34,331 nucleotides of DNA from a virus, in the IMG/VR virus record IMGVR_UViG_3300005832_000019, positions 1 through 34,331 of that record. One strand, 5' to 3'. Both the position numbers and the translations under genes were made by a program. Within the stretch, counting starts at the first letter, position 1. Every line of letters starts with the position of its first letter. Positions 321 to 25,022 of this stretch are shown one piece after another. Under the pieces are notes generated by a model. It ran no database searches. It was not told the origin of the DNA and saw only the letters and a list, made by a program, of their open reading frames with translations.

Positions 321-401
321 ATGACAAGACATGGCGTTATTGAAGTGGAAGTAAGCGGAAATAAATTCGAAAACCCAGAGCTTTTGAAAAATGGAAATTA
401 A
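321..401 (+). CDS. possible 26-aa protein, unknown
   Basis: The short frame MTRHGVIEVEVSGNKFENPE... follows a good purine-rich ribosome site (AAGGAAGGCG at 307-314 region) and the 33-nt leader repeat. Its last 11 nt overlap the start of the 65-aa gene at 391 in another frame. The start MTRHGVIEVEV looks like the first strand of a small beta protein, so it might be the remnant 5' end of a longer gene. No family is recognised. Confidence 0.35.
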   Translation: MTRHGVIEVEVSGNKFENPELLKNGN

Positions 402-588
402 CTTACAAGAAGCTTTTTGTGTACTATTAGACAATTGGTATTTGCAAGAAAAAGAGAAACTGAAAGGTTCCGGACAGCATCATCTTGGTCTTTTAAAAGA
501 AACGGTAAAATCCCAGTGTTGTGTCTTTTTGCAAGGCTTAGAGATATATGTTGAGAAATTGAAGAGAGATAGGGGCATAAAACAGTAA
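391..588 (+). CDS. 65-aa hypothetical protein
   Basis: Starts MEINLQEAFCVLLDNWYLQE and is predicted mostly helical with an alternating Lys/Glu pattern. Two adjacent cysteines (SQCC, about residues 42-45) are notable. It overlaps the 26-aa frame upstream by 11 nt, so it may be translationally coupled, because no clear GGAGG precedes its ATG. It is the last gene before the strong promoter at 629. No family is recognised. Confidence 0.5.
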   Translation: MEINLQEAFCVLLDNWYLQEKEKLKGSGQHHLGLLKETVKSQCCVFLQGLEIYVEKLKRDRGIKQ

Positions 589-628
589 ATTTCGGAACAA
601 GCTTAGAGTTAAGAACATCGATAATATA

Positions 629-657
629 TTGACAGTGTTTATAAACAATGTTAATAT
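629..657 (+). promoter_or_regulatory. sigma70-type early promoter
   Basis: A perfect -35 TTGACA (629-634), a 17-nt spacer and a -10 TAATAT (652-657). Transcription would begin near 664 and read into the gene at 687, whose GGAGG is at 676-679 region. The spacer contains the 12-bp palindrome TGTTTATAAACA, placed where a repressor would block RNA polymerase. It probably drives the rightward early cluster from 687 onward. Confidence 0.8.
636..647. promoter_or_regulatory. operator-like palindrome in early promoter
   Basis: TGTTTATAAACA is a perfect 12-bp palindrome lying between the -35 and -10 boxes of the promoter at 629-657. A near-identical sequence (TGTTTTTAAACA) forms the core of an inverted repeat at 5764-5779 in the other control region. 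Together they suggest binding sites for one phage repressor, for which the Cro/CI-like protein at 4240 is a candidate. The link is inferred from position and sequence only. Confidence 0.6.
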
Positions 658-686
658 ATAAGTATATTAACTTTGGAGGTTTAACA

Positions 687-935
687 ATGGATCATGAATT
701 GGAGTTATCAAAAAATTATTGGGATTGTGAATGTGTTGATAATTATATACAGCCTGTATCACAAAATCACTGCAATAAATGTGGTGCAAATCAAGAATCG
801 CAACCCCCTAGTCGTGTTAGAGAATTAAAAGAGGCCTGCTTGGAATATATCGTTACTAAAAAAGAAACGAAATGCGGGAAAGATTGCCCAAACTGGACCG
901 GCGTTCCTTCTGGGTGCGCTTGTCTCATTCAGTGA
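687..935 (+). CDS. 82-aa zinc-ribbon-like protein
   Basis: Start chosen at the ATG at 687 because a GGAGG lies at the normal distance; an in-frame ATG at 648 would place the promoter inside the gene. It begins MDHELELSKNYWDCECVDNY and then has HCNKCGA. The C-x-C and C-x2-C pairs suggest one small zinc site. The C-terminal part carries four more cysteines (KCGKDCPNW and CAC). This type of YWDCEC...CxxCG protein is often seen in phage accessory regions, but no biochemical role is known to me. First gene downstream of the early promoter. Confidence 0.65.
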   Translation: MDHELELSKNYWDCECVDNYIQPVSQNHCNKCGANQESQPPSRVRELKEACLEYIVTKKETKCGKDCPNWTGVPSGCACLIQ

Positions 936-961
936 TATTGGATTAATTTGGAGATGACAAG

Positions 962-1174
962 ATGGAATTAACAAAAAATCAAATTAAAATAATAGATTAT
1001 TTAAAAAAATCTAACGAAGAAAGCCCTGATGAATACGTTTCTCCTACCAAAATAGGACTGGATTTGACAGACAGAAAAATGAATAGTAATTGGGCATCAA
1101 GAATATGCTTGGAATTAGTGAAACTTGGTTTAATTGAAAGGTCAAATAAAGGCCATTATAGAATCCTGGTTTAG
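962..1174 (+). CDS. 70-aa winged-helix DNA-binding protein
   Basis: MELTKNQIKIIDYLKKS is the first helix of a typical winged-helix fold. A recognition-helix-like segment (YVSPTKIGLDL, about residues 26-36) and a second helix ending in LVKLGLIERSNKGHYRI (about 52-68) follow. The last part is the hallmark 'L...GLIER...G.Y' wing of MarR/ArsR-like regulators. It consists of the DNA-binding domain alone, with no effector domain. An upstream TTTGGAGATGACAAG provides the ribosome site. Probably a small phage transcription regulator. Confidence 0.65.
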   Translation: MELTKNQIKIIDYLKKSNEESPDEYVSPTKIGLDLTDRKMNSNWASRICLELVKLGLIERSNKGHYRILV

Positions 1175-1178
1175 TAAA

Positions 1179-1364
1179 ATGCCAAAAAAACCAACAAATA
1201 ACTACAACATTGAAGAAATTCAAAGAGTGTACAACACTACCGGGAATCATATTTTGTCTCGTACGGCTAAAATACTAGGCTATAAAAAAGGAGCGTTCAC
1301 TGGTTGGGTAAATAGAAATTATGACAGAAAAACTTTCTTTATAAAAAAGAACAGGGAGTATTAA
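1179..1364 (+). CDS. 61-aa helix-turn-helix-like protein
   Basis: Start taken at the ATG at 1179, 4 nt after the stop of the preceding gene; an in-frame TTG at 1134 would overlap that gene. The core NIEEIQRVYNTTGNHILSRT and AKILGYKKGAFTGWVNR (about 9-46) resembles a small homeodomain-like helix-turn-helix, with a basic C-terminal tail. Expected to bind DNA, with unknown targets. Tightly spaced with the winged-helix gene, so the two are probably co-expressed. Confidence 0.55.
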   Translation: MPKKPTNNYNIEEIQRVYNTTGNHILSRTAKILGYKKGAFTGWVNRNYDRKTFFIKKNREY

Positions 1365-1365
1365 A

Positions 1366-1647
1366 ATGATGGAAAAAGACATGCAAGGAAAAACAGCAAG
1401 AATTTACCCTATAATAAAAACTAATTTATTTGAAAAAATTCTTATAAAGTTATTGGGTAATAGATTTATTATGCATAATGTTGAAATAACGGTACGTGTT
1501 GAAAAAAAAGAAATACATTTTGATGTAGGTATTGCCTGCAATGAAAATAAAACACCACTGCTACATAATAGCCATTTTAAATATATCGACCCGTTAAAGT
1601 TACATACATCAGTTTTTAATATCTGGCTAAACCGGGGAGTAGTATAA
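1366..1647 (+). CDS. 93-aa hypothetical protein
   Basis: Starts MMEKDMQGKTARIYPI; the AGGGAG site at 1353-1358 supports either of the two adjacent ATGs (1366, 1369). It is predicted mixed alpha/beta with an amphipathic strand pattern (VEITVRVEKKEIHFDVGI, about 41-58). No known motif. Its last 15 nt overlap the 5' end of the tRNA-like gene at 1633, an unusual arrangement for a tRNA and a coding gene on the same strand. Confidence 0.55.
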   Translation: MMEKDMQGKTARIYPIIKTNLFEKILIKLLGNRFIMHNVEITVRVEKKEIHFDVGIACNENKTPLLHNSHFKYIDPLKLHTSVFNIWLNRGVV

Positions 1648-1712
1648 CGGAAATACGCACTGGTACCGTAATCAAGAAAAGTGTGATCCAGGTTCAATTC
1701 CTGGCTCCCCGA
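1633..1712 (+). tRNA. tRNA-like gene with enlarged anticodon arm
   Basis: The acceptor stem CGGGGAG (1633-1639) pairs perfectly with CTCCCCG (1705-1711), and A1712 is the discriminator. The D arm is GTAT/ATAC around a 7-nt loop containing GG. The T arm is a perfect CCAGG-TTCAATT-CCTGG. A 4-nt spacer (TGAT) precedes the T arm as in class I tRNAs. The anticodon arm is abnormal: CACT pairs with AGTG, but the enclosed loop is 18 nt (1661-1678), about nine more than allowed. I could not assign an anticodon. CCA is not encoded. It may be a true tRNA with an unusual arm, a tRNA mimic or a decayed gene. Confidence 0.65.
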
Positions 1713-1740
1713 CTTCATTATGCTAATTGGAGGAAAAAAA

Positions 1741-2172
1741 ATGCGAGGTTTTTTTGAAATAGGAATATACAAACCAAAAACAGCAAACAACATTGGTACG
1801 TTATGGCGAAGTGCGTACCAATTAGGGGCGGCCGGTATATTTGTTATTGGGAAAAGATATAAAAAACAATGCTCAGATACGGTGTGTGCATATAAGCATA
1901 TCCCATTAAAACAATATGATTCTTTTGAAACTTTTCTAAATACAAAAACATATGATTGTCAATTAATAGGAATCGAACAGGGCGGCAATAATTTAAAAGA
2001 ATTCGAGCACCCCAAAAGATGCATTTATTTATTGGGGGCAGAAGATAACATGCTACCCATAGATGTTTTAGATAAGTGCCACGACATCATAAGTATAGAA
2101 TCAATAAGAACAAATTCATATAATGTTTCAGTTACTGGAAGCATTGTTATGTATGATAGAGTTTTTGGTTAA
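1741..2172 (+). CDS. SpoU/TrmH-family RNA 2'-O-methyltransferase (SPOUT fold)
   Basis: Start at the ATG at 1741, because the GGAGG at 1731-1735 lies within the longer reading from 1720. At 143 aa it matches the minimal TrmL-like SPOUT enzymes. The three family motifs are visible: motif 1 NNIGTLWRSAYQLGA (16-30, with Asn17 and catalytic-type Arg23), motif 2 YLLGAED (96-102), and motif 3 SYNVSVTGSIVMYDR (126-140), which forms the trefoil-knot S-adenosylmethionine site. Family members methylate the ribose of tRNA or rRNA; TrmL acts on the wobble base. It begins 28 nt after the tRNA-like gene, so a link between the two is plausible but unproven. Confidence 0.85.
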   Translation: MRGFFEIGIYKPKTANNIGTLWRSAYQLGAAGIFVIGKRYKKQCSDTVCAYKHIPLKQYDSFETFLNTKTYDCQLIGIEQGGNNLKEFEHPKRCIYLLGAEDNMLPIDVLDKCHDIISIESIRTNSYNVSVTGSIVMYDRVFG

Positions 2173-2200
2173 TGTTTTTTATGCGAAATTGGAGGCTTAA

Positions 2201-2368
2201 ATGTATCAAAAATGTCCGGTATGTGGAGGAAGAGGAACAGTTCCAGGTGGTTTTTATAGCACCTATAGTCACGGATTGACTACTAGCCTGGAACCGGAAA
2301 CTTGCAGGCGTTGCAATGGATTGGGGACAATATCTGATAATGAGACAATGTTTGTAGCTACTAAATAA
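2201..2368 (+). CDS. 55-aa DnaJ-type zinc finger protein
   Basis: An ideal GGAGG (2191-2195) precedes ATG 2201. The protein has two CxxCxGxG repeats, CPVCGGRG (residues 5-12) and CRRCNGLG (35-42), separated by a Gly/Ser/Tyr-rich loop. This is half of the four-repeat cysteine-rich domain of DnaJ, so it should bind one zinc ion. Stand-alone proteins of this kind are common in phages and plasmids. A role in protein-protein contact or folding is conceivable but not shown. Confidence 0.7.
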   Translation: MYQKCPVCGGRGTVPGGFYSTYSHGLTTSLEPETCRRCNGLGTISDNETMFVATK

Positions 2369-2426
2369 TAATTACTTACTGTTTTATTATGAGAAAATAA
2401 GAAAACTAATAATAAAAGGATAGGAA

Positions 2427-2507
2427 ATGAAAGAAATATTAAAAAAAATTAACGACATTGTAATATCGTTAATGATGGTATTGTGTTTGGCTGGATTTTT
2501 AATTTAA
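2427..2507 (+). CDS. possible 26-aa membrane peptide
   Basis: MKEILKKINDIVISLMMVLC is followed by LAGFLI: a short amphipathic start and one hydrophobic helix (about 11-26). A purine-rich AAAGGATAGGAA precedes the ATG. It is in a gap between two credible genes, which supports it, but its length makes it uncertain. Function unknown. Confidence 0.4.
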   Translation: MKEILKKINDIVISLMMVLCLAGFLI

Positions 2508-2536
2508 TACTAAAGGACTGAAGGGATGAGTAAATT

Positions 2537-2737
2537 TTGGAAAAATTAAAACCGTGTCCGTTTTGTGGTGAAATACCCAATTTAATATCAAGGGGGAATC
2601 AAATTGGAAATAGAAAGCTTCATTATGTACAATGTCAAAATTTAAAATGTATGTTGCTTATTCAAACACTGATGTTCAAAAGCAAAAAAGAAGTAATAAA
2701 TATATGGAATAAAAGAGCACCACAATGCAGAAATTAG
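2537..2737 (+). CDS. Lar-like zinc-ribbon protein (restriction alleviation type)
   Basis: A probable TTG start at 2537 gives MEKLKPCPFCGEIPN. The KPCPFCG box (residues 5-11), followed by a second cysteine pair (QCQNLKC, 33-39) and the terminal 'IWNKRA' box, is the pattern of Lar-family proteins. In lambdoid prophages Lar modulates type I restriction-modification. At 66 aa it fits the family. GAAGGGATG at 2519-2527 supplies a weak ribosome site. Many phage proteins share this fold with no proven anti-restriction role. Confidence 0.65.
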   Translation: MEKLKPCPFCGEIPNLISRGNQIGNRKLHYVQCQNLKCMLLIQTLMFKSKKEVINIWNKRAPQCRN

Positions 2738-2856
2738 CATTGTTTGAAACATAACAAATTTTTAAATAAGGGATTGCGTAAGGAATTAACGTAAAACCTT
2801 AAAGCTACATTAAAAGTATTGTTAATGCTGTTGCTGGAGGAGTGAGTGCAAAAAAA

Positions 2857-2943
2857 ATGAGTTATATTGAAGATTTCCTGGAAGATGAAGAAGAAAGACA
2901 GCGGAATTTAATAGAAGAATTAAATAAAATATACGAGGAGTGA
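2857..2943 (+). CDS. possible 28-aa acidic peptide
   Basis: The frame MSYIEDFLEDEEERQRNLIE... is strongly acidic and helical, as for a short coiled coil. GGAGG at 2836-2840 is either too close to an in-frame GTG (2842) or too far from this ATG, so the start is unclear. It ends 8 nt before the gene at 2952. It could be a real small protein or a leader frame. Confidence 0.3.
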   Translation: MSYIEDFLEDEEERQRNLIEELNKIYEE

Positions 2944-2951
2944 TGAGATAA

Positions 2952-3209
2952 ATGAACGAGGAGCAATGGGATAATAAAATAATTGTAATAAAAGAAGGCC
3001 TGCTAATCAGTATCATAAATGATGTTGTTACGTTTTCTGCTATATCCGGAGCAATGTATTTAAATTATATTTTTTGCGGAAACAGCCAAATTATGAATGG
3101 TTTTTTTATACTGTTATTTTTATTTAAATCCAATTCTTATTTAAATAAATATAAAATGACAATTAAAGAGGCAAAGGAATATATAAATAAATTAGAGGAT
3201 GTCGCATAA
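2952..3209 (+). CDS. 85-aa membrane protein, two predicted helices
   Basis: Starts MNEEQWDNKIIVIKEG. Hydrophobic segments at about 17-41 (LLISIINDVVTFSAISGAMY) and 46-60 (IMNGFFILLFLF) are followed by a basic amphipathic C-terminus (TIKEAKEYINKLEDVA). The ATG follows a GAGGAG by about 11 nt. The layout resembles small phage inner-membrane proteins of unknown function. It is far from the lysis genes, so calling it a holin is not justified. Confidence 0.55.
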   Translation: MNEEQWDNKIIVIKEGLLISIINDVVTFSAISGAMYLNYIFCGNSQIMNGFFILLFLFKSNSYLNKYKMTIKEAKEYINKLEDVA

Positions 3210-3241
3210 GATTGGTTATGTAAATATAATCGGAGGATAAT

Positions 3242-3490
3242 ATGCTACACAGAATAAAAATAAAACAATGTTATTTGATTCATATACTAGAAGGAATAAA
3301 AAATTTTGAAGTTCGTAAAAACGACCGCGATTATCAAGTCGGAGACAAAATAAGATTTCTACCAATAGAAGATGAAAATTACGATGTATACCTTACTGAA
3401 AAAAACATACCTGAATATAAAATAATTTATGTTCACGAAGGTTACGGGATTAATGCAACTTATGTTGTTTTAGGAATTAAAGCAATTTAA
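3242..3490 (+). CDS. DUF3850-like (ASCH/PUA-related) protein
   Basis: MLHRIKIKQCYLIHILEGIK is followed by NFEVRKNDRDYQVGDKIRF (22-40), the hallmark 'FEvRkNDRdyqvGD' box of DUF3850 phage proteins, and ends with the typical TYVVLGI strand. At 82 aa it is the expected length. These proteins are predicted to have an ASCH/PUA-like beta barrel that may bind RNA or modified nucleotides. A CGGAGG site at 3231-3236 supports the start. It lies about 1 kb from the tRNA-like gene and the methyltransferase. Confidence 0.75.
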   Translation: MLHRIKIKQCYLIHILEGIKNFEVRKNDRDYQVGDKIRFLPIEDENYDVYLTEKNIPEYKIIYVHEGYGINATYVVLGIKAI

Positions 3491-3496
3491 TTAAAC

Positions 3497-3512
3497 CCCA
3501 CGAATTCGTGGG
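3497..3512. repeat. 16-bp perfect palindrome
   Basis: CCCACGAATTCGTGGG is perfectly palindromic and starts 6 nt after the stop of the DUF3850-like gene. As RNA it would fold into a 6-bp stem with an AAUU loop. No U-run follows (GTGTATAG), so it is not a standard intrinsic terminator. It could be a protein-binding site, an mRNA-stabilising 3' hairpin or a weak rho-independent pause. Confidence 0.6.
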
Positions 3513-3533
3513 TGTATAGAAAGAAATTGAATT

Positions 3534-3704
3534 TTGGAAGAAATAAATGTTATTTATGAAAAACTTATTGATAGTCTTAAAATGAGCCATAAACTTTTGG
3601 AAAAAAGACCAGATTTGTCTAAAAAATATTTTGAGTCTATAAGAGAATCATTTGTTATTTTAGAAGATTATTTTAAAACAAATGAAATAAAAGATCGAAA
3701 ATAA
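3534..3704 (+). CDS. 56-aa helical hypothetical protein
   Basis: The frame opens with TTG at 3534 (LEEINVIYEKLIDSLKMSHK...) and has an internal ATG at 3582. It is predicted entirely helical with a coiled-coil-like spacing of Leu/Ile. The ribosome site is weak (AAAGAAATTG). Fills the gap between the DUF3850-like gene and the zinc-ribbon gene at 3727. No family recognised; start uncertain. Confidence 0.4.
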   Translation: MEEINVIYEKLIDSLKMSHKLLEKRPDLSKKYFESIRESFVILEDYFKTNEIKDRK

Positions 3705-3726
3705 TTAAATAAGGTTAGGGAATATT

Positions 3727-4179
3727 ATGACGCGAATTTTTAAAAATTGGGAGTTTGAGGAAGCTAGATGCTGTGAGTATTGTGCAGTATTGCAGTATTA
3801 TACGTTTGATTGCCCTAAATGTAAAATGAAAGAGGCAGAGACTAATCTTGATGAAGAGCTAGAAGATATCGTAAATTGGCATCCAAATGATACAGCGTAT
3901 TTTAAATGCGAAAATTGCGGACAAGAATTTGAAATAGTTAAAGTTACCAGTTGGGACTCTGCGGATATTAAAATGATAAAAAAACCAAAAAAGGAAATAT
4001 TAAAAACCATCATTAGCCGCATCCCTTTCCCTAAAGTCATAAGATTAAAAATATTTAAAAAGTACTATATGATAACTAAAATAATTCCCGCATTTGAATT
4101 CACGGGAAAAGAAATAAATCTTAAAATTAAATGTTTACCTTTTAAGTTTAATTTAATGACTTATGAAATTAAAAATTAA
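3727..4179 (+). CDS. 150-aa protein with tandem zinc-ribbon cysteines
   Basis: Starts MTRIFKNWEFEEARCCEYC. Cysteine pairs at about 15-19 (CCEYC), 29-32 (CPKC) and 60-63 (CENC) suggest one or two zinc sites in the first 70 residues. The second half is basic and rich in Lys/Ile, with no motif I recognise. The ribosome site is a weak GTTAGGGAA. It may bind nucleic acid, but nothing specific is visible. It ends 61 nt before the regulator at 4240. Confidence 0.55.
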   Translation: MTRIFKNWEFEEARCCEYCAVLQYYTFDCPKCKMKEAETNLDEELEDIVNWHPNDTAYFKCENCGQEFEIVKVTSWDSADIKMIKKPKKEILKTIISRIPFPKVIRLKIFKKYYMITKIIPAFEFTGKEINLKIKCLPFKFNLMTYEIKN

Positions 4180-4202
4180 GGTAATGTCATAGTTAACGGT
4201 AG

Positions 4203-4231
4203 ATGACAAATAAAATTATTTTATCTAAAAT
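4203..4231 (+). promoter_or_regulatory. promoter giving a leaderless regulator mRNA
   Basis: -35 ATGACA (4203-4208, 5 of 6 to TTGACA), 17-nt spacer, -10 TAAAAT (4226-4231). The expected start near 4238-4240 coincides with the ATG of the Cro/CI-like gene, and no ribosome binding site is present between the -10 and the ATG. The mRNA would therefore be leaderless, as known for lambda cI from its maintenance promoter. Confidence 0.6.
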
Positions 4232-4239
4232 AGCTCATT

Positions 4240-4455
4240 ATGAATATCTATAAATGTATAGGAAATAAAATAAAAGCAATAAGAATTAAATTTGCTTTAA
4301 CCCAAGAAAGGCTGGCAGTAATGATGAATTGTGATGCAACAACAATACATCATTATGAAGCAGCTAAAAGAAAAATAGACATTTATAATTTAATGCTATT
4401 TTGCAGAATATTTGACATCAATATAGGCGATTTTATTTTGTATCCTCAAAATTAA
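4240..4455 (+). CDS. Cro/CI-type (XRE) transcriptional regulator
   Basis: 71 aa consisting only of an HTH_3 domain. MNIYKCIGNKIKAIRIKFAL leads into the helix-turn-helix (LTQERLAVMMNCDATTIHHY, about 20-39), followed by the usual 'E...R.IDIYNLMLFCRIFDINIGDF' helices. No oligomerisation or protease domain is present, so it is Cro-sized. Transcription appears leaderless from the promoter at 4203-4231. It lies at the end of the rightward cluster facing a leftward regulator block. It is the best candidate for the protein that binds the TGTTTwTAAACA palindromes, though that pairing is inferred. Confidence 0.8.
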   Translation: MNIYKCIGNKIKAIRIKFALTQERLAVMMNCDATTIHHYEAAKRKIDIYNLMLFCRIFDINIGDFILYPQN

Positions 4456-16526: not shown

Positions 16527-16811
16527 TTACTCCTTATTGCTAAATAGTTTTTTAAATATCCCCTTTTTATTAAAAATAGCTAATTCGCTTTTTATGGCTA
16601 AATTTTTTGCTATATCTTCAAATCTAATTTTTTCCTCGTTCAAATATTTACAATCTCTCTTTAGCTCTTCGATTTTTACAATTTGTTCATTAATCAATAT
16701 CTCGCGCTTAGTTATTTCTTCAATCAAAAAAATACTTTCTTTTTCTTTTTCAATTATATTTTCTTTTTGTTTTATTAATTCGTTCTTTAAATGTTCTATT
16801 AAATCTTTCAT
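16527..16811 (-). CDS. 94-aa coiled-coil protein
   Basis: MKDLIEHLKNELIKQKENII continues as an almost uninterrupted heptad coiled coil to about residue 75, then ends in a basic KKGIFKKLFSNKE. It starts 1 nt into the stop codon of the S74 fibre gene, so the two are probably coupled. It may trimerise with a fibre or assist its folding. It precedes the connector gene. No specific family recognised. Confidence 0.55.
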   Translation of the reverse strand: MKDLIEHLKNELIKQKENIIEKEKESIFLIEEITKREILINEQIVKIEELKRDCKYLNEEKIRFEDIAKNLAIKSELAIFNKKGIFKKLFSNKE

Positions 16812-18340
16812 TATTGCCCTTCTAAAACAATAATTCTATTATTTAATTCTTTAATCGCTTCTGTTATTACAGGAATAATACATGAATAATTTATAGCCTT
16901 ATAGCCTTCCTTATCGGTTTTTACAGCCTCTGGTAAAACGGTTTCTGTTTCTTGGGCTATAAAACCGATATTCAAATTATCCAATTCGCTTTGTTCATTA
17001 AAACGAAAATAACGGCCGGAAAGTGCCAAAATCTTCTCAAGACAATTATTTAAATTAGATATATCTTTTTTAGTTCTAATATCAGATGTTCCATAATAAC
17101 CAGTCCAATCAATATACCATTTTAATACCCCATTATTTCGCCCTGTCATAAAATAAAAATATTGTGAACCGTAACCATCAATTCTTACAATTTCATTGTA
17201 TATACCAGTAGGATTATTGACCATAATAAGAGACGAGGCTGATGAGGGAGTAGTATTTATCCCTACTTTTGTGCCTAATTTAACCGTGCCTCCTGGATTA
17301 ACATCTAAATGCTGCCAAGCATTTAGCGTAGCATTATGCCCCCCAATAGTAGCCACCCCAGAAAGCTGACCCATAATTACAGAAGCACTACTATAACCAA
17401 AAGCCGCCCCGCCTTTCCAGCTTGTTGGGATATTTGAGTAAGCTCTTAAATTAACTAATTGAGCGTCTGAATCCGCAAATTCTCCTATTCTTATTTTTCC
17501 CGTTGTGTAAATAGTTAATTTGCCATTTGCTGCGTATTCTGCTTGACCTCCAGACGCATCATAACCAATTTGAAAATAACCAGCTGACCCCCAATTGTAA
17601 TTTGTACCTATAAACCACTCGGGAGTACCTTGATCTATTAAAATACCCGCTCCCCGTGAATCAATTGTATTTTGGATAATAGTACATCGCATCGAACTTG
17701 ATCCGCCGCCTGTCATATTGAAAATGGCATTACTCGAGGAAAAAACACTGAAATTATCTATTATTTCCATTACGTAGGAACTTGGATCTTTCCCTATTCC
17801 GATATTTCCAGTATTATTCATTATAAAGCCCTTATTCCAAGTTATAGGATTGCCTGGTGTAACTCCTGAATCATAAAGGATTTTAAATAAATCACCTGTT
17901 TTCTGAATAGAATAATTACTTCCAAGCCAACTGCTTTTATCCGAGACCCCATCCAAATAACAATCAAAATAAAAACCTATGGTGTCGCTATCATAATGAA
18001 CGTACTGCATGAAAGGCCTGGTCTGGTTTAAATCGTTATAAACAGAGATATTTGAGGAATCAGCAGTGAAGTGTGTGCCGTCTATAATCAATTTTCCGTA
18101 TTTTGATGTTGGCGTAATACCGATACCCAAATTATCATTAACTCTAACGCCGTTACCTGTTCCCGCGATTGTAGGCGTTAATATCCCGTTGGTAAAAGTT
18201 TTCGCTCCCGCAATAGTTTGCGCCTGGTCATTTATATGACCCCAAGCAACCCCAGATTGCGCTAAATCCTTACCCGCCAATAAATCGTGATCTATTTCGG
18301 TGTATTTAATTTGATCTGGCCTTAATGGATATACTGACAT
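16811..18340 (-). CDS. tail fibre with C-terminal S74 intramolecular chaperone (509 aa)
   Basis: The N-terminus (MSVYPLRPDQIKYTEIDHDL) and shaft carry fibre motifs such as DNLGIGITPTSKYGKLII and VGINTTPSSAS. The last 91 residues start at Ser419 in 'GTSDIRTKKDI', followed by FIAQETETVLPEAV and a final helix. This is the Peptidase_S74 domain that trimerises fibre C-termini and cuts itself off at the Ser. The motif Ser-Asp-x-Arg-x-Lys is intact, so autocleavage before Ser419 is expected. It lies downstream of the 671-aa fibre and upstream of the coiled-coil gene. Confidence 0.85.
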   Translation of the reverse strand: MSVYPLRPDQIKYTEIDHDLLAGKDLAQSGVAWGHINDQAQTIAGAKTFTNGILTPTIAGTGNGVRVNDNLGIGITPTSKYGKLIIDGTHFTADSSNISVYNDLNQTRPFMQYVHYDSDTIGFYFDCYLDGVSDKSSWLGSNYSIQKTGDLFKILYDSGVTPGNPITWNKGFIMNNTGNIGIGKDPSSYVMEIIDNFSVFSSSNAIFNMTGGGSSSMRCTIIQNTIDSRGAGILIDQGTPEWFIGTNYNWGSAGYFQIGYDASGGQAEYAANGKLTIYTTGKIRIGEFADSDAQLVNLRAYSNIPTSWKGGAAFGYSSASVIMGQLSGVATIGGHNATLNAWQHLDVNPGGTVKLGTKVGINTTPSSASSLIMVNNPTGIYNEIVRIDGYGSQYFYFMTGRNNGVLKWYIDWTGYYGTSDIRTKKDISNLNNCLEKILALSGRYFRFNEQSELDNLNIGFIAQETETVLPEAVKTDKEGYKAINYSCIIPVITEAIKELNNRIIVLEGQ

Positions 18341-18341
18341 T

Positions 18342-20357
18342 TTATTTCCTCACTGAATAATAAATATCTAAAACCTCAATATTTGCTTGTGCGCCGCTTT
18401 CATTTCTAACCAACAAATAAATCACATCATTTGTTTCTACTTGAGCAATTGCTTTAGGGGATACGGATATCGCCCTCTGAGAAGAAATAAAAGAAGCATC
18501 CGTCCCTCCGGTAATAATTAATAAACAATATGAATTTACAGGGGTGCCATTATCGGTGAAAGTAATCGCCGCGCCGCCCAATATATAAGATACTTGAAAA
18601 TTATTAGTTGTGGCATTTACCACATAATAAGCTAAATCTTTTCTTAATTCCGCCGGTAAAGTTCCCTCTGAAATTTTAAAAGTTATTATATCCCCATTAT
18701 TCAAACCGTGTGCGCTTTGAATTACAATATTCGTGGTATTATCAAAAGTCACTTCATATGTATTGCATTTTAAAACACAAAAAGAAGAACTAAGAATTTT
18801 TTCTGCTAATGTTGGTTTCATCAAAACATTAGCGGCCAATACCGGAGAAATTCCTTCCAACCCTAAATATTTAGCCCCGCCATCAGATAATAACTCAAAT
18901 CTTTCGTCGGTTTCATATGTATATGAAACATTATACGCGATGAAAACCCAAGCATTTTTAGCCGGGTTATATGTTATAGCCGTATTATTTTCCAAATAAA
19001 TTTGTATTGTCGCCGTGCTATCTTTTATTGCATAGTTATTAAATACTCTCAAGTCTATGTTATCCTGTTTTTTGGAAATATCCGTATAAAATCTTTCTGG
19101 TGGCGTAACAAAATTATTGTAAACACTACCAAAAACATTCCCTTCCATACTTATGAACCTTTCATTTGTTCCTAAATCCTGATGATAATTTGCTTCTATA
19201 TTTAACAACGTTTTTATTGAAGGATTTGTACTTATAAACCGCAATGCGATCGTATTCGCGTTGTTTTGCCATGTTGTATGTACAACTTTTTGCCAGCCAA
19301 CAAAACGGCAATTATCAAACGTTATACCCCCACCAACATAATTAATTGTTGAATTATTAAACGTTAAGGCTACGTCCTTGATTGTTCCTAAGCTGTCAAA
19401 CGTTGTCAATACACCAGGATATAAGTTAGTTACAATAAATTCAGTCCCATATATTTGAGCCGTGGGATCACCGTCAATGTCAAATAAAGTTCCACCAGCA
19501 GCTGCGGCGATTATAAAACCAAAATTAAAAGCAAAAAAAGAACCGGCTGACATAGTACCCTGAAAAAAAGTCGCTCCACCCGTATAAAGAATACCTGAAA
19601 ATCCAGGAATAGAAGCACTTAACGTGACAGTACCCGCAGACGGAGGAGCAATTGCATAAGGTATTAGAATGAATCCATTAAAAATATAATTCCTATTTTC
19701 AAGCACTATAACTCCGCCCGATGGCGCCGGTAAATCGTTAACTGAATTAACAACCTTTTCTAAAAGAGGCACTTTCGCTATGAATTCATTATTAATCCTT
19801 GAAGAACTCCAAACCTTACTAGTTGAGATTTCATCGTCGGCAATTACCGGAACACCTGGAATAGCTACATTATAATGAACTGTAAGCTCATCACCAACTA
19901 GAGGTGCAGCATTCATTGTAAAAATGCCAGTTGATGGAGACGTCTCCTCCCAGTCTTTATCTGATCCTTGAGATTCCATTTTACCATTTCTAACTGGCCA
20001 TAATGTACCTTGTTGGTAAGAGCCATTAGGAACTTGGAAAACCTTATTATTACCGTCAATAACTCCAATTAATTGTCCATACGAACTTCCAGCCCCTCCA
20101 GAACTAGAAGCAATATAATAGCTTGAAATAGCATTATCAAGTTCATTTACAGCGCCGATTATGCTTTTATGTGAAGTATTAAAAGAAGTATTGCCAGGCT
20201 CCCCTAATTCTACTGGTGTCGTCGTAACATCATTATCTTTTAAGCCCCCTGTATCTATATCGATATTATCACCAGGAAATCTAGGCGTAATAGAATTACC
20301 AATTTTTTTCCAATACGTAGCTATTTTATTTCCTATATAACCGTTTGTTATCCCCAC
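18342..20357 (-). CDS. large fibre/tailspike-like protein (671 aa)
   Basis: The N-terminus is MGITNGYIGNKIATYWKKIG, then a 'DNDVTTTPVELGEPGNTSFN' segment (41-60). About 215-420 repeats short hydrophobic strands with Gly/Asn turns (FNNSTINYVGGGITFDNCRF), which suggests a right-handed beta-helix as in tailspikes. A C-terminal beta domain ends the protein. No catalytic residues of a named lyase or hydrolase could be assigned. It overlaps the upstream 107-aa gene by 10 nt. It probably acts in host recognition. Confidence 0.65.
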   Translation of the reverse strand: MGITNGYIGNKIATYWKKIGNSITPRFPGDNIDIDTGGLKDNDVTTTPVELGEPGNTSFNTSHKSIIGAVNELDNAISSYYIASSSGGAGSSYGQLIGVIDGNNKVFQVPNGSYQQGTLWPVRNGKMESQGSDKDWEETSPSTGIFTMNAAPLVGDELTVHYNVAIPGVPVIADDEISTSKVWSSSRINNEFIAKVPLLEKVVNSVNDLPAPSGGVIVLENRNYIFNGFILIPYAIAPPSAGTVTLSASIPGFSGILYTGGATFFQGTMSAGSFFAFNFGFIIAAAAGGTLFDIDGDPTAQIYGTEFIVTNLYPGVLTTFDSLGTIKDVALTFNNSTINYVGGGITFDNCRFVGWQKVVHTTWQNNANTIALRFISTNPSIKTLLNIEANYHQDLGTNERFISMEGNVFGSVYNNFVTPPERFYTDISKKQDNIDLRVFNNYAIKDSTATIQIYLENNTAITYNPAKNAWVFIAYNVSYTYETDERFELLSDGGAKYLGLEGISPVLAANVLMKPTLAEKILSSSFCVLKCNTYEVTFDNTTNIVIQSAHGLNNGDIITFKISEGTLPAELRKDLAYYVVNATTNNFQVSYILGGAAITFTDNGTPVNSYCLLIITGGTDASFISSQRAISVSPKAIAQVETNDVIYLLVRNESGAQANIEVLDIYYSVRK

Positions 20358-20671
20358 AGTTCTATTCCCATAGCACTATCTAGAGATGAAGTAAAATATG
20401 GACTAAATTCCGTAAGATTTTCCATTAATGGCAATTCTCTGGATGCTCCACACTGGATAATTCCCCCGGCCGTATTAACTGAAATTGAATTTGTAGCACC
20501 ATAATAAATATCATTATCAGATAAATTATTAAGGATAATTGTTTTTGTTTGATCTAATGATTCTTTAGGTATATTAAAAATTTCCAGGAGTTTTTTTGGT
20601 GTTGTAGTTACATTTTCTCTTCCATCATAAAATAAACCGTTTACGCGAATTATTATTTCGGTTAATGACAT
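20348..20671 (-). CDS. 107-aa virion-associated beta protein
   Basis: MSLTEIIIRVNGLFYDGREN, then NVTTTPKKLLEIFNIPKE, TIILNNLSDNDIYYGATNSI and GIIQCGASRELPL. This arrangement (first strand, 'T.T..K.L', 'L.N..d..IYyG.t.si') is typical of small phage proteins that decorate capsids or link fibres. It is the first gene after late promoter copy 3 and overlaps the start of the 671-aa fibre. Function inferred only from composition and position. Confidence 0.5.
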   Translation of the reverse strand: MSLTEIIIRVNGLFYDGRENVTTTPKKLLEIFNIPKESLDQTKTIILNNLSDNDIYYGATNSISVNTAGGIIQCGASRELPLMENLTEFSPYFTSSLDSAMGIELWG

Positions 20672-20692: not shown

Positions 20693-20709
20693 TTTTTATT
20701 ATATCACTT
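20693..20709 (-). promoter_or_regulatory. late promoter copy 3 (fibre/connector transcript)
   Basis: The minus strand reads AAGTGATATAATAAAAA. It overlaps the last codons of the glycosyltransferase fusion (CAA GTG ATA TAA) and lies 21 nt upstream of the 107-aa gene. Downstream, CTATAATATCAC forms an inverted repeat with the promoter's own GTGATAT, a possible extra control element unique to this copy. Confidence 0.8.
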
Positions 20710-23533
20710 GTAATAATGCATTTTGGTTTAAATCTTTAATTATCTTTTTTGCTATTACTTTTTCATCCAATTTAATTTCCAATGTTTTTCCAATACCAAT
20801 TTTTAAATAAGCTTCTTGTTTTATTTTTTCCGCTAATTCCTTATATAAAATATTTTTTTCGTTTTTAAAATATTTATCATACAATTTTTCAATCATTGGT
20901 ATTGACATTTCATCAATATCCTTACATCGTAACGCTTGATATTTTTCTTGCGCCCAACAAATACGATTGTAAAAGTCTCGCATTAAAAGAATTATGCTTA
21001 ATTTTCGAATTGGTAATCCAGCTTTTTTTCTTTCATCCACGTTCTTAGCCACATCCATTTCTAATAATTTTAAATTTCTATTAAGCGCCTTATTCCTTCT
21101 AATCAATTCAGTAGTTTCACCGAAATTCAGAATGTGTGCGCCTGTCATTATTAAAGCCGGCATAATACTTTCGTTTATATCGTTTTTGTCTTGCACTTGC
21201 TCGTGTATATATCCAAAAAACTCACCTTTATTTTTTCGATATAAACGCATTGGACTGTCCGCTTCAATGAAATTATCAAATTGAACATGATGCTGTGATA
21301 TAATATATCCATTAATAAAATCACTATCTAAGAATTGCCTAAATGGTTTTTGCTTTAATAATATTTCATCTGTATCTATCCAAAATATCCATTCATTTTT
21401 TGCTTGTTTAACGACATAATTCCTGGCATTAGAAAAACCCCAATAATCAGGAGCCTGAATGCTTTTTTCTAAATATATTATTTTGACTTTTTTATATTTA
21501 CCTATTCTTCGCTCTAATTCTTTGTTTTCATTTTGCTTGTGGTCAAGCCCAATAATTATTTCATCTACTTCATAATTAATAGAATCAAGCATTCTTTCAA
21601 TTTCTTTTTCGGCATCTTTGGCAATAATACAAGCAGAAATCCCGGCATAAGGCCTTGTTAATAAATATTTTTTTCCTAAATCACGATTTCTTATAGCAAG
21701 ATCATCTTTTGTATATTTAATAAGATAATTACCCAATCTCTCGCCATACATTCCAATCATATTATGAATAATATTCATCTTAAAATCTTTTCTGTGCCCT
21801 AACATTGTGCGAATATCATTTTTATCAAAACAATTAACGTGGTAATAAACATCATTTTCCATATTTTCTAAATGGCTGAGTTTTTCCCAAGCACCCTTTG
21901 GTACAGTAATAAATATTTTCCCGCCTGACCTCACCATATTTTCTAATCTGGATAATTCTGCAATAGGATCAAGTACATGTTCCAAATATTCACCAATAAA
22001 AATGGCATCATATTTTATTTTTTTTAGGTCATCTTCATTATTTGTGAAAAATATATTATCCGGATATTTAGCGTATTTTTTTATTCTTATTTTAGCTTTT
22101 TCAATAGCCTTTTCACTTATGTCATATCCTGTTATCCTACAATTAGGATTTCTATTGCTAGAAAGAATCGTTGCCCAACCCATATGACAAGCATAATCCA
22201 ATATCTTTTCTATTTTATTATCTTGTATTTGTTGTGATAACCATTTAAAACGTGTATTTTGCTCCATTGCCTCTAAATCTAAATCTATTTTTTCGTGCGT
22301 TTTTTCGTTCTCATATATTTCTTTTAATGATTCTTTGCCGTCAACAAATCTAAGCATATTGTCTATTTGTTCTTTTTTTTCTAAATAATTAACATCTACC
22401 ATATTTTTGGATGGTAATATTTTTCTTTGAATTAACTCTCTCGCAGCCACAATATCACTTTCATAAATAAATTTATTGATTATTCCCTGAGTATTTTTTG
22501 ACCTTATTTCAAAATGCAATATAGCATCATCAATTATTTTTTTTGCTATATTATCCCAGTTGTATTTTTTTATTATTGATTCTTTATCTATATTTGTTTT
22601 TTTATTTTTTAATTGCTTTTTTAGTTCTACGATAAAATTATCATTATAAATATCTTCTTGCTCGGGATTGTCAATTTTTATATGGCCAGTTTCTACCAAT
22701 GCAAATCCATTTGTGGAAATAAAAGCCGTTCCATTTCCTTGTGCTTCTATTGCAGATATACAAAATATTTCTGGGAATTCCGTTGGATATATAACAGCTT
22801 TACTTTCCGCAAGATTCTCATATAATTCCTTTTTGTTAAAATTTGCTAATTTAATGTTATAACCGATCTTTCCTAACCTAGCCATATAATCCAAGCAAAT
22901 AGATGTTATTTTATCTACTTTGGGATCATTGATCGATTGATAAGTACAAATCATAAACTCTAAATCCTTATCTCCTAATTTTTCATAAATTTGTAAAGCT
23001 CTATACAATCCCCGTTCTGGTCGGGATGTATACATTATTTTATGTTTTTTTTCTTTATAATTAATTAATATTTCAGAATCAATACCATTAGGAATTATTT
23101 TTATTATCGATTCTAATTCCGGTAAATTTTGCAAATATTGTTTTTTATGAAAATCTGATAAACAATACATATAATCAATATTGTAAATTACAGACATAAG
23201 CATATCTTTATCTACTAAAATATCGTGATTCCATAAAATATTTAATTTTGAATTTATTTTATTTTTGAATAAATCAAGAAATCTACTAACAATCAATATA
23301 TCGCATTCACCACAAAGAACGAATTGGTTCCAATTATCAATATTGTAGTATTTAACATTTTCATAAATACCGGGATTATCACATTTGCAAAAAACATCTA
23401 CATTATGACCCATTTTTGCTAATGCTCTGGCCACATAAATAACAGCAGATTCACTACCACCTAAGGCTTTCTCATTTATACTATTACCATTGAATTCAAT
23501 CCCAGCCGTTGCTATTACTATATCTAACTTCAT
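20699..23533 (-). CDS. GT4 - methyltransferase - GT2 fusion (944 aa)
   Basis: Three enzyme domains in one chain. Residues 1-345 are a GT-B glycosyltransferase of GT4 type: GGSESAVIYVARAL (25-38), nucleotide-sugar region SRPERGLYRAL (170-180), and PEIFCISAIEAQGNG (254-268). About 425-610 is a class I methyltransferase with ILDYACHMGWA (444-454, a variant of LDxGCGxG), an acidic GYDIS (469-473) and EYLEHV (515-520). About 630-880 is a GT-A family 2 glycosyltransferase with WIDTDE (718-723), whose DTD motif binds the metal. AAGGAG (23541-23546) lies 7 nt from the ATG. It probably decorates virion or cell-surface glycans; the substrate is unknown. Confidence 0.85.
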   Translation of the reverse strand: MKLDIVIATAGIEFNGNSINEKALGGSESAVIYVARALAKMGHNVDVFCKCDNPGIYENVKYYNIDNWNQFVLCGECDILIVSRFLDLFKNKINSKLNILWNHDILVDKDMLMSVIYNIDYMYCLSDFHKKQYLQNLPELESIIKIIPNGIDSEILINYKEKKHKIMYTSRPERGLYRALQIYEKLGDKDLEFMICTYQSINDPKVDKITSICLDYMARLGKIGYNIKLANFNKKELYENLAESKAVIYPTEFPEIFCISAIEAQGNGTAFISTNGFALVETGHIKIDNPEQEDIYNDNFIVELKKQLKNKKTNIDKESIIKKYNWDNIAKKIIDDAILHFEIRSKNTQGIINKFIYESDIVAARELIQRKILPSKNMVDVNYLEKKEQIDNMLRFVDGKESLKEIYENEKTHEKIDLDLEAMEQNTRFKWLSQQIQDNKIEKILDYACHMGWATILSSNRNPNCRITGYDISEKAIEKAKIRIKKYAKYPDNIFFTNNEDDLKKIKYDAIFIGEYLEHVLDPIAELSRLENMVRSGGKIFITVPKGAWEKLSHLENMENDVYYHVNCFDKNDIRTMLGHRKDFKMNIIHNMIGMYGERLGNYLIKYTKDDLAIRNRDLGKKYLLTRPYAGISACIIAKDAEKEIERMLDSINYEVDEIIIGLDHKQNENKELERRIGKYKKVKIIYLEKSIQAPDYWGFSNARNYVVKQAKNEWIFWIDTDEILLKQKPFRQFLDSDFINGYIISQHHVQFDNFIEADSPMRLYRKNKGEFFGYIHEQVQDKNDINESIMPALIMTGAHILNFGETTELIRRNKALNRNLKLLEMDVAKNVDERKKAGLPIRKLSIILLMRDFYNRICWAQEKYQALRCKDIDEMSIPMIEKLYDKYFKNEKNILYKELAEKIKQEAYLKIGIGKTLEIKLDEKVIAKKIIKDLNQNALLQVI

Positions 23534-23583: not shown

Positions 23584-23614
23584 TAAAAAACCCCGTATTA
23601 TTTGGGGCTTTTTA
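23584..23614 (-). terminator. intrinsic terminator after the capsid transcript
   Basis: On the minus strand GCCCC and GGGG pair around a 9-nt loop, followed by TTTTTT. The stem is flanked by A/T pairs that lengthen it. A five-T run on the plus strand could make it work in both directions, but no plus-strand gene is near. It begins 6 nt after the stop codon of the 65-aa gene and separates the capsid transcript from the glycosyltransferase fusion. Confidence 0.8.
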
Positions 23615-23619
23615 ATTCA

Positions 23620-23817
23620 TTAAATCATTTTTTTAAATAGATAATGAATGTTTTCAATATCTATTTTTTCAAGTTTGCGAAACCCTAACATGTGAGCTTC
23701 TAATTTTTGTTCTAATTCTCTTACTAAATCCTCATCAATATTTTCTATTTTCTTTTCTTCCGTTTCTTTTTCTACTCGTTTTTCATTTGTCTCTTTTTTT
23801 ATTTTTTTTTCTGTCAT
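23620..23817 (-). CDS. 65-aa Lys/Glu-rich protein downstream of capsid gene
   Basis: The first half (MTEKKIKKETNEKRVEKETE...) is nearly all Lys and Glu and probably disordered. The second half (about 29-65) is an amphipathic helix pair (LVRELEQKLEAHMLGFRKLE). An AGGAG lies at 23824-23828, 6 nt from the ATG, just after a strong hairpin. It is in the position often held by small capsid decoration or head-completion proteins, but the sequence shows no such motif. Last gene before the terminator. Confidence 0.55.
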   Translation of the reverse strand: MTEKKIKKETNEKRVEKETEEKKIENIDEDLVRELEQKLEAHMLGFRKLEKIDIENIHYLFKKMI

Positions 23818-23834
23818 AACTAACTCCTAAAATA

Positions 23835-23864
23835 AATAGAGTGGGTTATTATACCCACTCTATT
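23835..23864 (-). promoter_or_regulatory. 12-bp hairpin between capsid and 65-aa genes
   Basis: Twelve perfect base pairs (AATAGAGTGGGT with ACCCACTCTATT) enclose a 6-nt loop. It lies 9 nt after the capsid stop codon and 6 nt before the next gene's AGGAG. The tail on the minus strand is TATTTTA, a poor U-run, so partial termination or 3'-end protection of the capsid mRNA is more likely than full termination. Confidence 0.7.
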
Positions 23865-23873
23865 AAATCGATA

Positions 23874-25022
23874 CTATGCGATTCCGTCTAGTCTACCGTG
23901 TGCAGTCTCTTCTTTGAATTCCATTCCATAAGTACCAGCAACATAACCCTTTTTGGCTAATGATCCATCGTCATAAGGTTTGGAACCAAAACTATTCCCA
24001 ATATAAGGTGCTATTTTAATAAAATCCTTTCTTAGACAAAGCACCGTACCGCTTGGAATCCATCTTATTTGCCTAATCGCAAGACGACCAAAATCTGATA
24101 GATATGTTTCTGCCGGTTGTACACCAACTACCGTTTCCTGAATCGTTTGCTGTATTCTGGAATCCCTCGAATTAGAAATTTTTCTAAATGCAGTCACCCC
24201 AGCATACAAAGCGTATTTATCAATATTTGATTCAAGATCAGTATAAGTATTAATTGAAGCCATTACATTATTTAAAATTGAATTCGAAAATGTTGCATGA
24301 GAAACAATGTTTGTTGTGATTGAGTGATAAATACCAGCCATAGTTGTTTCTTTATCATCCGCTCCGATAGTATTTCCGTTAGTTCTACCCATCAAACAAG
24401 CTTTTTCTAATTGCTTCATTGCTTCTGTTGTTTTGTCAACTACTTCTTCGTCAAAAGGTTCTGGTTTTCCGGAAACTTTCATAACAACTTTGTTAGCTAG
24501 ATTAGAAATATTAATATCTTCTCTAAACGTTTGAACAAAATTAAATTTATTAACACGGATTGTCCTTCTTTGTTCCCTTATTTCCGCACCCTCATAAAGC
24601 GCACTACCCAAAAACATTAATTGCGTTCCTGCCGCAGCACTATTTGCTGTAGTTCCTGCATAAGCACGAGTTACGTAAATTGTTGCGGAAGATGTGCCTA
24701 CCGACGTGATATACATTTGCTCACCAGTACCAGATTCTTTTGCTAGAATATCGCCAATTTTTAGATATGCTGCATTTGCGCCAATTTCTATTCCATTAGA
24801 TGTTCCCGCACTAGAAGCTATTGCAGAAGAAGTTGTATAACTATCTGGCAATAATGTTTTTTGTTCCCAAGAATACAATTTGGATTTTATTGATTCGTCC
24901 GCATCCCCAATGTCATCAAGAAATTTTGTTTGTGCAGGAGAGATCATGCTTACAATCTTACTAACATCTTCTCCTACTTCTGTTGAAAATATATCGTATA
25001 CTGCTACACCTGAAAAAGCCAT
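23874..25022 (-). CDS. HK97-fold major capsid protein, DUF5309-like
   Basis: 382 aa (MAFSGVAVYDIFSTEVGEDV at the start) directly after the scaffold gene. The layout matches the DUF5309/SU10-type capsid group: N-terminal arm, a Gly/Thr/Ala-rich insertion (about 70-135), then REQRRTIRVNKFNFVQTFRED (about 150-170, an 'R.N.tQ.F.e.i.vs' box), a long spine-helix-like segment KTTEAMKQLEKACLMGRTNG, and the end 'GTYGMEFKEETAHGRLDGIA'. There is no separate protease. It forms the shell lattice. High confidence for capsid; moderate for the exact family. Confidence 0.8.
   Translation of the reverse strand: MAFSGVAVYDIFSTEVGEDVSKIVSMISPAQTKFLDDIGDADESIKSKLYSWEQKTLLPDSYTTSSAIASSAGTSNGIEIGANAAYLKIGDILAKESGTGEQMYITSVGTSSATIYVTRAYAGTTANSAAAGTQLMFLGSALYEGAEIREQRRTIRVNKFNFVQTFREDINISNLANKVVMKVSGKPEPFDEEVVDKTTEAMKQLEKACLMGRTNGNTIGADDKETTMAGIYHSITTNIVSHATFSNSILNNVMASINTYTDLESNIDKYALYAGVTAFRKISNSRDSRIQQTIQETVVGVQPAETYLSDFGRLAIRQIRWIPSGTVLCLRKDFIKIAPYIGNSFGSKPYDDGSLAKKGYVAGTYGMEFKEETAHGRLDGIA

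Follow-up and report, generated by a model that had tools for sequence, protein, structure and literature searches.

The window analyzed here, the 34,331-base virus record IMGVR_UViG_3300005832_000019, encodes on its minus strand a 944-amino-acid (aa) protein in which a GT4 glycosyltransferase (GT), a class I methyltransferase (MT) and a GT2 glycosyltransferase are joined in one chain. We consider it probable that this fusion is a single-chain glycan assembly enzyme modifying the phage's own virion, with GT2 as initiator of the glycan, GT4 as extender and the methyltransferase as the capping domain; predictions of its acceptor, of its sugars, of the sequence of steps and of activity in the window copy rest on kinship and gene position. 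A first-pass annotation of the window had described the gene as inserted among virion genes; sequence comparison shows that it is no singular insertion and belongs to a large family of phage genes that keep a conserved position downstream of the capsid gene. As far as the open-access literature shows, this widespread three-domain family is undescribed: neither a characterized phage enzyme with the GT4–MT–GT2 architecture nor any description of such a fusion was found there. Phage virion glycosylation and flagellin enzymes that combine a GT with a methyltransferase are already known kinds of system. The fusion gene and its parts are as follows.

20699..23533, minus strand, GT4–methyltransferase–GT2 fusion gene, 944 aa (ATG at 23533, stop ending at 20699)
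22502..23533, minus strand, GT4 (GT-B) domain, aa 1-344, with GGSE loop, R171/R174 and E255-x7-E263 (Pfam, structure alignment, residue conservation)
22259..22501, minus strand, helical linker, aa 345-425 (AlphaFold2 secondary structure)
21710..22258, minus strand, class I S-adenosylmethionine (SAM) methyltransferase domain, aa 426-608, with motif I DYACHMG at 446-452 (Methyltransf_23, motif conservation)
21047..21700, minus strand, GT2 (GT-A) domain, aa 612-829, with DTDE 720-723, R704-N705, H777-E778 and R819-N820 (Pfam, profile and structure matches)
20702..21046, minus strand, C-terminal helical tail, aa 830-944, mostly alignable to the helical C-terminal part of SunS/ThuS
21125..21127, minus strand, AAT codon for Asn803, which is His in 75 aligned relatives (family alignment)

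The open reading frame (ORF), the Pfam matches and the AlphaFold2 model agree with the three-domain protein first annotated at this place, and the structure prediction and domain searches proposed as a check on it recovered GT4, Methyltransf_23 and GT2 alike. Pfam matched Glyco_transf_4 / Glycos_transf_1 in the N-terminal third, Methyltransf_23 at aa 438-581 (E 1.8e-13) and Glycos_transf_2 at aa 633-728 (E 6e-8); the PHROGs match covers the GT4 part only (phrog_2170). The AlphaFold2 model, built with 76 family members, has a mean predicted local distance difference test (pLDDT) score of 90 and a predicted template modeling (pTM) score of 0.91, and in this model the three domains form one well-packed unit. 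Residues 1-344 aligned with GT4-type and related GT-B enzymes at Z 26-32 and a root-mean-square deviation (rmsd) of ~2.5-3.9 (VIA-align). An AGGAG ribosome-binding site lies just 5' of the ORF, whose length, together with 75 aligned full-length homologues, excludes a chance reading frame; a plus-strand reading was rejected for its many stops. An Rfam scan of the window gave no matches.

A scan of viral contigs with a peptide pattern taken from the single sequence found no matches; searching with the GT2 domain and then with a family alignment succeeded. The GT2-domain alignment returned 19 viral loci, most of them encoding full GT4–MT–GT2 fusions, and the alignment made from those loci (A2) retrieved 383 IMG/VR stretches encoding relatives (80 fetched) and 33 loci in bacterial assemblies. 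Full-length fusions examined numbered 101, reduced to 79 by removal of near-copies. Those in bacterial assemblies mostly adjoin phage head genes (L103-L108, L125), and the family was not found as typical of host surface-glycan loci (lipopolysaccharide [LPS]/capsule) among the loci examined; the fusion is thus not a common host surface-glycan enzyme devoid of phage association. Isolated phages and plasmids yielded no GT4–MT–GT2 fusion, only partial and mostly single-domain matches. Two loci (L112/L113) encode a GT4–GT2 protein without the methyltransferase at the same genomic place, which indicates that the methyltransferase is modular. By Foldseek, 880-920 columns of the model aligned with two uncultured Caudovirales phage proteins in BFVD (A0A6J5T3W3, A0A6J5M7M7), which carry generic annotations and superpose poorly overall (rmsd 28). 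We know of no characterization of either.

Conservation was counted over a 76-row alignment (A3) of the window protein and 75 full-length relatives, which are 25-31% identical to it (mean column identity 28% over the 76 sequences). On this alignment, the predicted catalytic residues of all three domains are conserved family-wide. The near-invariant set of the GT4 domain comprises GGSE25-28, D78, R84, D104, R171, E173, R174, C258 and E263, with the Gly-rich N-terminal loop GGSE, the sugar-phosphate basic pair R171 and R174, and E263 each present in 76/76 and E255 in 70/76 (Asp in the other 6). The corresponding sets are D446, G452, E515 and E518-H519 in the methyltransferase and R704-N705, D720-x-D722-E723, Q747, H777-E778 and R819-N820 in the GT2 domain, where D720, D722 and E723 occur in 76/76, so that the GT-A DxD, annotated from the outset as an intact DTD, is present. 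The methyltransferase motif DYACHMG had been called degenerate. It departs from the textbook motif, but the family-wide form is D-x-[GA]-C-x-x-G (G or A at position 448 in 74/76, the last Gly in 71/76), of which DYACHMG is a typical variant, and methyltransferase decay was rejected on this ground. Position 471, the acidic residue after beta-2 of the same domain, is Asp in 65/76 and Asn in 10/76. One relative (L007, 3178-7014) carries an intein with an HNH endonuclease (PF14890, E 6e-17; PF13392) in the EX7E motif of its GT4 domain; inteins usually occupy conserved, needed sites. We count this intein and the near-invariant residues of the three domains as signs of selection, as read from the sequences.

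Whole-model Foldseek and VIA lists were dominated by the GT4 domain, and the GT2 domain with its tail was therefore modeled (pLDDT 88) and searched alone. The isolated model matched SunS (Z 21.4) and ThuS (Z 21.3) through most of the helical tail, with the next fold at 14.1, and the family profile run against PDB sequences matched GmaR (E 1.3e-41), SunS (2.5e-28) and ThuS (1.3e-27), the next GT2 following at 2e-10. These profile and model comparisons show the GT2 half to be closest, among solved structures, to protein/peptide glycosyltransferases, which makes it the likelier initiator on protein and GT4 the likelier extender. SunS and ThuS, the glycocin peptide S-glycosyltransferases of the GT2 type, share with the fusion a GT-A domain followed by a helical C-terminal part (~265 residues aligned) and the RN, DxD, HE and RN motifs; they differ in being stand-alone enzymes with small-peptide acceptors, at ~18-20% identity. 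The SunS equivalog model TIGR04195 scored three relatives at 29-36 bits against its curated cut-off of 350 and did not list the window protein at E 0.1. GmaR, the Listeria flagellin O-linked N-acetylglucosamine (GlcNAc) transferase, glycosylates flagellin (PMC9638930). It is the top profile match of the GT2 domain and its acceptor is a polymeric structural protein, but its GT2 domain is N-terminal, followed by TPR and antirepressor domains, and it lacks both a GT4 domain and a methyltransferase. Bacterial relatives of the two halves are encoded by individual genes in a Maf/MptE-type island (L120) that also has a radical SAM-SPASM gene; another bacterial relative, a GT2-TPR protein, is encoded among flagellin genes (L135).

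To place the fusion relative to head genes, hidden Markov models (HMMs) of two capsid clusters, of the phrog_1005/Phage_cap_E and phrog_1328 kinds, were run on six-frame ORFs of the 79 loci; no sequence similarity between these two capsid families was detected. In 56 of the 79 nonredundant fusions the capsid gene precedes the fusion on its strand (54 of them ≤2.2 kb away), and in none does it follow on that strand, while an inverted fusion stands beside a capsid gene on the opposite strand in 2/79. No capsid gene was found by HMM in the other 21 loci, 9 of which have <2.5 kb of upstream sequence. The usual order is portal, protease, a cement-like protein of 121 aa, capsid, fusion, head-tail adaptor, neck and minor tail. 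In 27 loci the fusion is bracketed by capsid and adaptor genes detected on its strand, and in ~10 of these essentially only the fusion lies between them, which favors a head protein as the acceptor. The closest syntenic relative (L031) has the order TerL–portal–major capsid protein (MCP)–fusion, its GT4 domain at 49% and its MCP at 56% against the window. A FastTree tree of the fusion gene splits largely by capsid family, with some long branches, the window's among them. In the annotated isolates RDJL6, KPP23 and Lsp-JY19, whose capsid proteins are of the same family, small genes come directly after the capsid gene and there is no fusion, which marks the fusion as an accessory gene held at this site. 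The GTs of the family are thus phage-encoded and genetically linked to virion genes.

In the proposed mechanism, the C-terminal GT2 domain with its helical tail would most likely use a nucleotide-sugar to place the first sugar on a Ser, Thr or Cys residue of a head protein, either the major capsid protein or a decoration or fiber protein encoded in the capsid-to-connector slot. A second sugar would then come from the N-terminal GT4 domain, and the middle methyltransferase would methylate a hydroxyl and so cap the glycan. The first-pass annotation's idea of a glycan enzyme that has three activities and is linked to the virion genes is supported by the domains and by the family-wide position. 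Its stepwise glycan with a methyl cap holds as the most economical reading, with a precedent in Clostridioides difficile; the order in which GT2 acts first is our proposal. On C. difficile type B flagellin, an enzyme named GT1 adds GlcNAc first, and one named GT2 (CDR20291_0242), a GT and methyltransferase protein, adds rhamnose and is proposed to methylate it; the glycan genes lie downstream of fliC and, according to the authors, methylation may stop further glycan extension (PMC5207246). Compared by description, CDR20291_0242 resembles the fusion in joining a GT to a methyltransferase in one protein, in building an O-glycan on a structural protein and in the closeness of its gene to the acceptor gene, and differs in that only GT2-type (PF00535) and methyltransferase domains are reported for it and a separate GT1 initiates. 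Among phages, the GTs of mycobacteriophages Che8 and Rita have been linked to capsid and tail tube sugars (cited in PMC12619734 and PMC11256854); as presented there, they are unlike the fusion in being separate genes, near the genome 3' end in Maravista and not beside the capsid gene. An architectural parallel is found in podovirus ctKR88 (MW202524, Manatee Spring), an otherwise unrelated phage in which a related GT4 (29% identity) is fused to a GT2 in a gene placed two genes after the capsid gene, although the domain order is reversed (GT2-TPR-GT4), with TPR in the middle and no methyltransferase.

Several observations weigh against virion modification by this enzyme, and the alternatives that they bear on are considered with them. 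The window copy differs at 8/88 positions with ≥90% conservation; simple decay was considered against the 80/88 that are retained. At position 803 the window protein has Asn in place of the C-terminal His of the GT-A core, which is shared by 75/75 relatives and by GmaR and ThuS, and nearby Tyr806 is changed to Glu. Because Asn803 replaces an invariant His, the GT2 activity of this copy is putative and the copy is a poor first choice for assays. Another record (L002, IMGVR_UViG_3300001371_000020) is protein-identical to the window's packaging and head genes and ends inside the capsid gene, so it provides no check on Asn803. These substitutions could mean that the window copy is partly inactive, having lost its GT2 step, with GT4 and methyltransferase acting on a host-placed sugar. 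We regard this as unlikely: all other checked catalytic positions are kept (a key residue is lost in one domain, not in two or more), the 944-codon frame is open and the model is confident. Asn is also able to bind metal, and the substitution is seen in a single sequence copy, in which an assembly error is possible.

GmaR, SunS and ThuS are, moreover, the nearest among solved relatives only, and the broad GT2 group to which they belong also includes lipooligosaccharide glycosyltransferases. Enzymes of surface-glycan synthesis commonly have GT4 and GT2 folds, and many are among the GT4 structure matches; prophages are also well known to encode glycosyltransferases that alter the serotype of the host (cited in PMC12619734). 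Both facts would suit an enzyme acting on a surface glycan or receptor of the host (LPS, teichoic acid or capsule) for superinfection exclusion or as an aid to release. However, most family members are part of the head module, next to the capsid gene, the GT2 half is nearest to protein/peptide transferases, and in the loci read nothing beside the fusion was recognized as a gene for a flippase, polymerase or membrane anchor. A host-surface change that blocks superinfection, initially offered as an alternative, is less likely than virion modification, and we judge it distinctly improbable. The chance that the fusion instead glycosylates phage DNA, producing a hypermodified base as protection against restriction, appears very slight. 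Some phages are known to have glycosyltransferases that attach a variety of glycans to DNA (Pyle et al. 2024, cited in PMC12619734), but the closest relatives of the fusion act on peptides or proteins, its gene tracks head genes, and a non-exhaustive look through the window, a record that may be incomplete, brought up no hydroxymethyl-pyrimidine synthase.

Position, too, has more than one possible meaning. The place after the capsid gene could be a tolerated accessory site or reflect vertical inheritance of the head module rather than a capsid substrate, and some clades, in which no capsid gene was found, have the fusion close to tail or fiber genes: in the tail-terminator region (L029, L023), beside an S74 fiber (L025), or, in the L097 clade (capsid-less within reach), in a fiber and APS-kinase/sulfotransferase region. 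In the window itself, two terminator-like hairpins split the fusion from the capsid gene, making co-expression with the fibers possible. The window's gene order is listed below along transcription, all genes on the minus strand.

31392-29983, minus strand, terminase
29096-27585, minus strand, portal-position protein
27585-26791, minus strand, Mu-F-like protein
26630-26223, minus strand, holin-like protein
26211-25792, minus strand, M15 peptidase
25739-25041, minus strand, scaffold (PF06810)
23874..25022, minus strand, major capsid protein, upstream neighbor of the fusion and candidate acceptor (phrog_1328, E 3.5e-20)
23835..23864, minus strand, strong terminator-like hairpin and T-run directly after the capsid gene (-18.1 kcal/mol, z -5.5)
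23620..23817, minus strand, charged 65-aa ORF between capsid gene and fusion
23591..23607, no strand assigned, second hairpin with T-run between capsid gene and fusion (z -5.1)
20348..20671, minus strand, 107-aa protein, next gene downstream of the fusion, candidate acceptor
18342..20357, minus strand, fiber-like protein, 671 aa, candidate acceptor (phrog_9370 tail fiber, E 2.7e-5)
16811..18340, minus strand, fiber with S74 chaperone domain, 509 aa, candidate acceptor (PF13884, E 2.9e-13; phrog_5668)
13237-10781, minus strand, minor tail/tape-measure-type protein (PhageMin_Tail)

The fusion thus lies between capsid and fiber genes, as first annotated, with the capsid gene upstream and two fiber-like genes downstream. 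Terminator-like sites in the window are about as numerous as in shuffles, and only the two hairpins with strong fold z-scores were used; they may reduce expression of genes 3' of the capsid gene. Together with the 107-aa protein and the two fibers that follow the fusion, they leave some room for a narrower form of virion modification in which the acceptor is a fiber or decoration protein of the same slot and not the capsid shell. An S74 fiber or other large ORFs in that slot in L025, L041, L064 and L094 point the same way, but the ~10 loci with the fusion alone between capsid gene and head-tail adaptor contain no fiber there, and we think a fiber or decoration acceptor rather unlikely. The acceptor could be the capsid, cement, 107-aa or fiber protein.

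Phage virion glycosylation has so far been documented in a few mycobacteriophages. It is plausible, although we hold the claim only tentatively, that in hundreds of uncultivated tailed phages a single polypeptide carries out initiation, extension and methyl capping, a whole protein-glycosylation line that needs no lipid carrier and coats the capsid. Such a module would serve with two or more capsid families, and one clade pairs it with a sulfotransferase and an APS kinase, through which sulfate could be added. If this holds across such very diverse environmental phages, sugar-coated capsids would be a common feature that went unnoticed for want of an isolate with the gene, and the fusion would be a compact enzyme possibly able to build a defined methylated glycan directly on protein. 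In the clade concerned (L097, with L075 and L086), a sulfotransferase gene (L097, 5856-6635) lies upstream of the fusion with one TPR gene between, and an APS-kinase-like gene (L097, 10817-11239) lies directly downstream, an arrangement in which the glycan could be sulfated too.

Further arrangements of the same modules were seen in the survey. A viral contig (L021, 1281-4373) encodes them in reverse order as GT2-TPR-MT-GT4. In Aequorivita antarctica (L110, 5797-11890), a GT4-GT2 protein, its GT4 domain 43% identical to the window protein, is encoded beside a second GT2-TPR protein, a collagen-repeat protein and a 1913-aa LysM protein, which looks like another protein-glycosylation cluster. 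A small radical-SAM family (cluster 10) occurs near portal, protease or capsid genes in 13/79 loci, including L014, L018, L028, L035, L068, L088, L100 and L101, with two copies in some; its relation to the radical-SAM gene of the L120 island is at superfamily level only and was not used as evidence.

In the window, a scan for sigma-70-type promoters gave no more hits than in shuffles, and no promoter is claimed. Past the 509-aa S74 fiber come further small ORFs and then a 273-aa candidate tail protein. At 1633-2172 on the plus strand, a tRNA-like gene with no anticodon assigned lies directly 5' of a gene for a 150-aa SpoU-type RNA 2'-O-methyltransferase. Finally, the GC skew changes near 4.5 kb, and so does the coding strand, separating small plus-strand genes (391-4455) from the minus-strand virion module (6367-34090).

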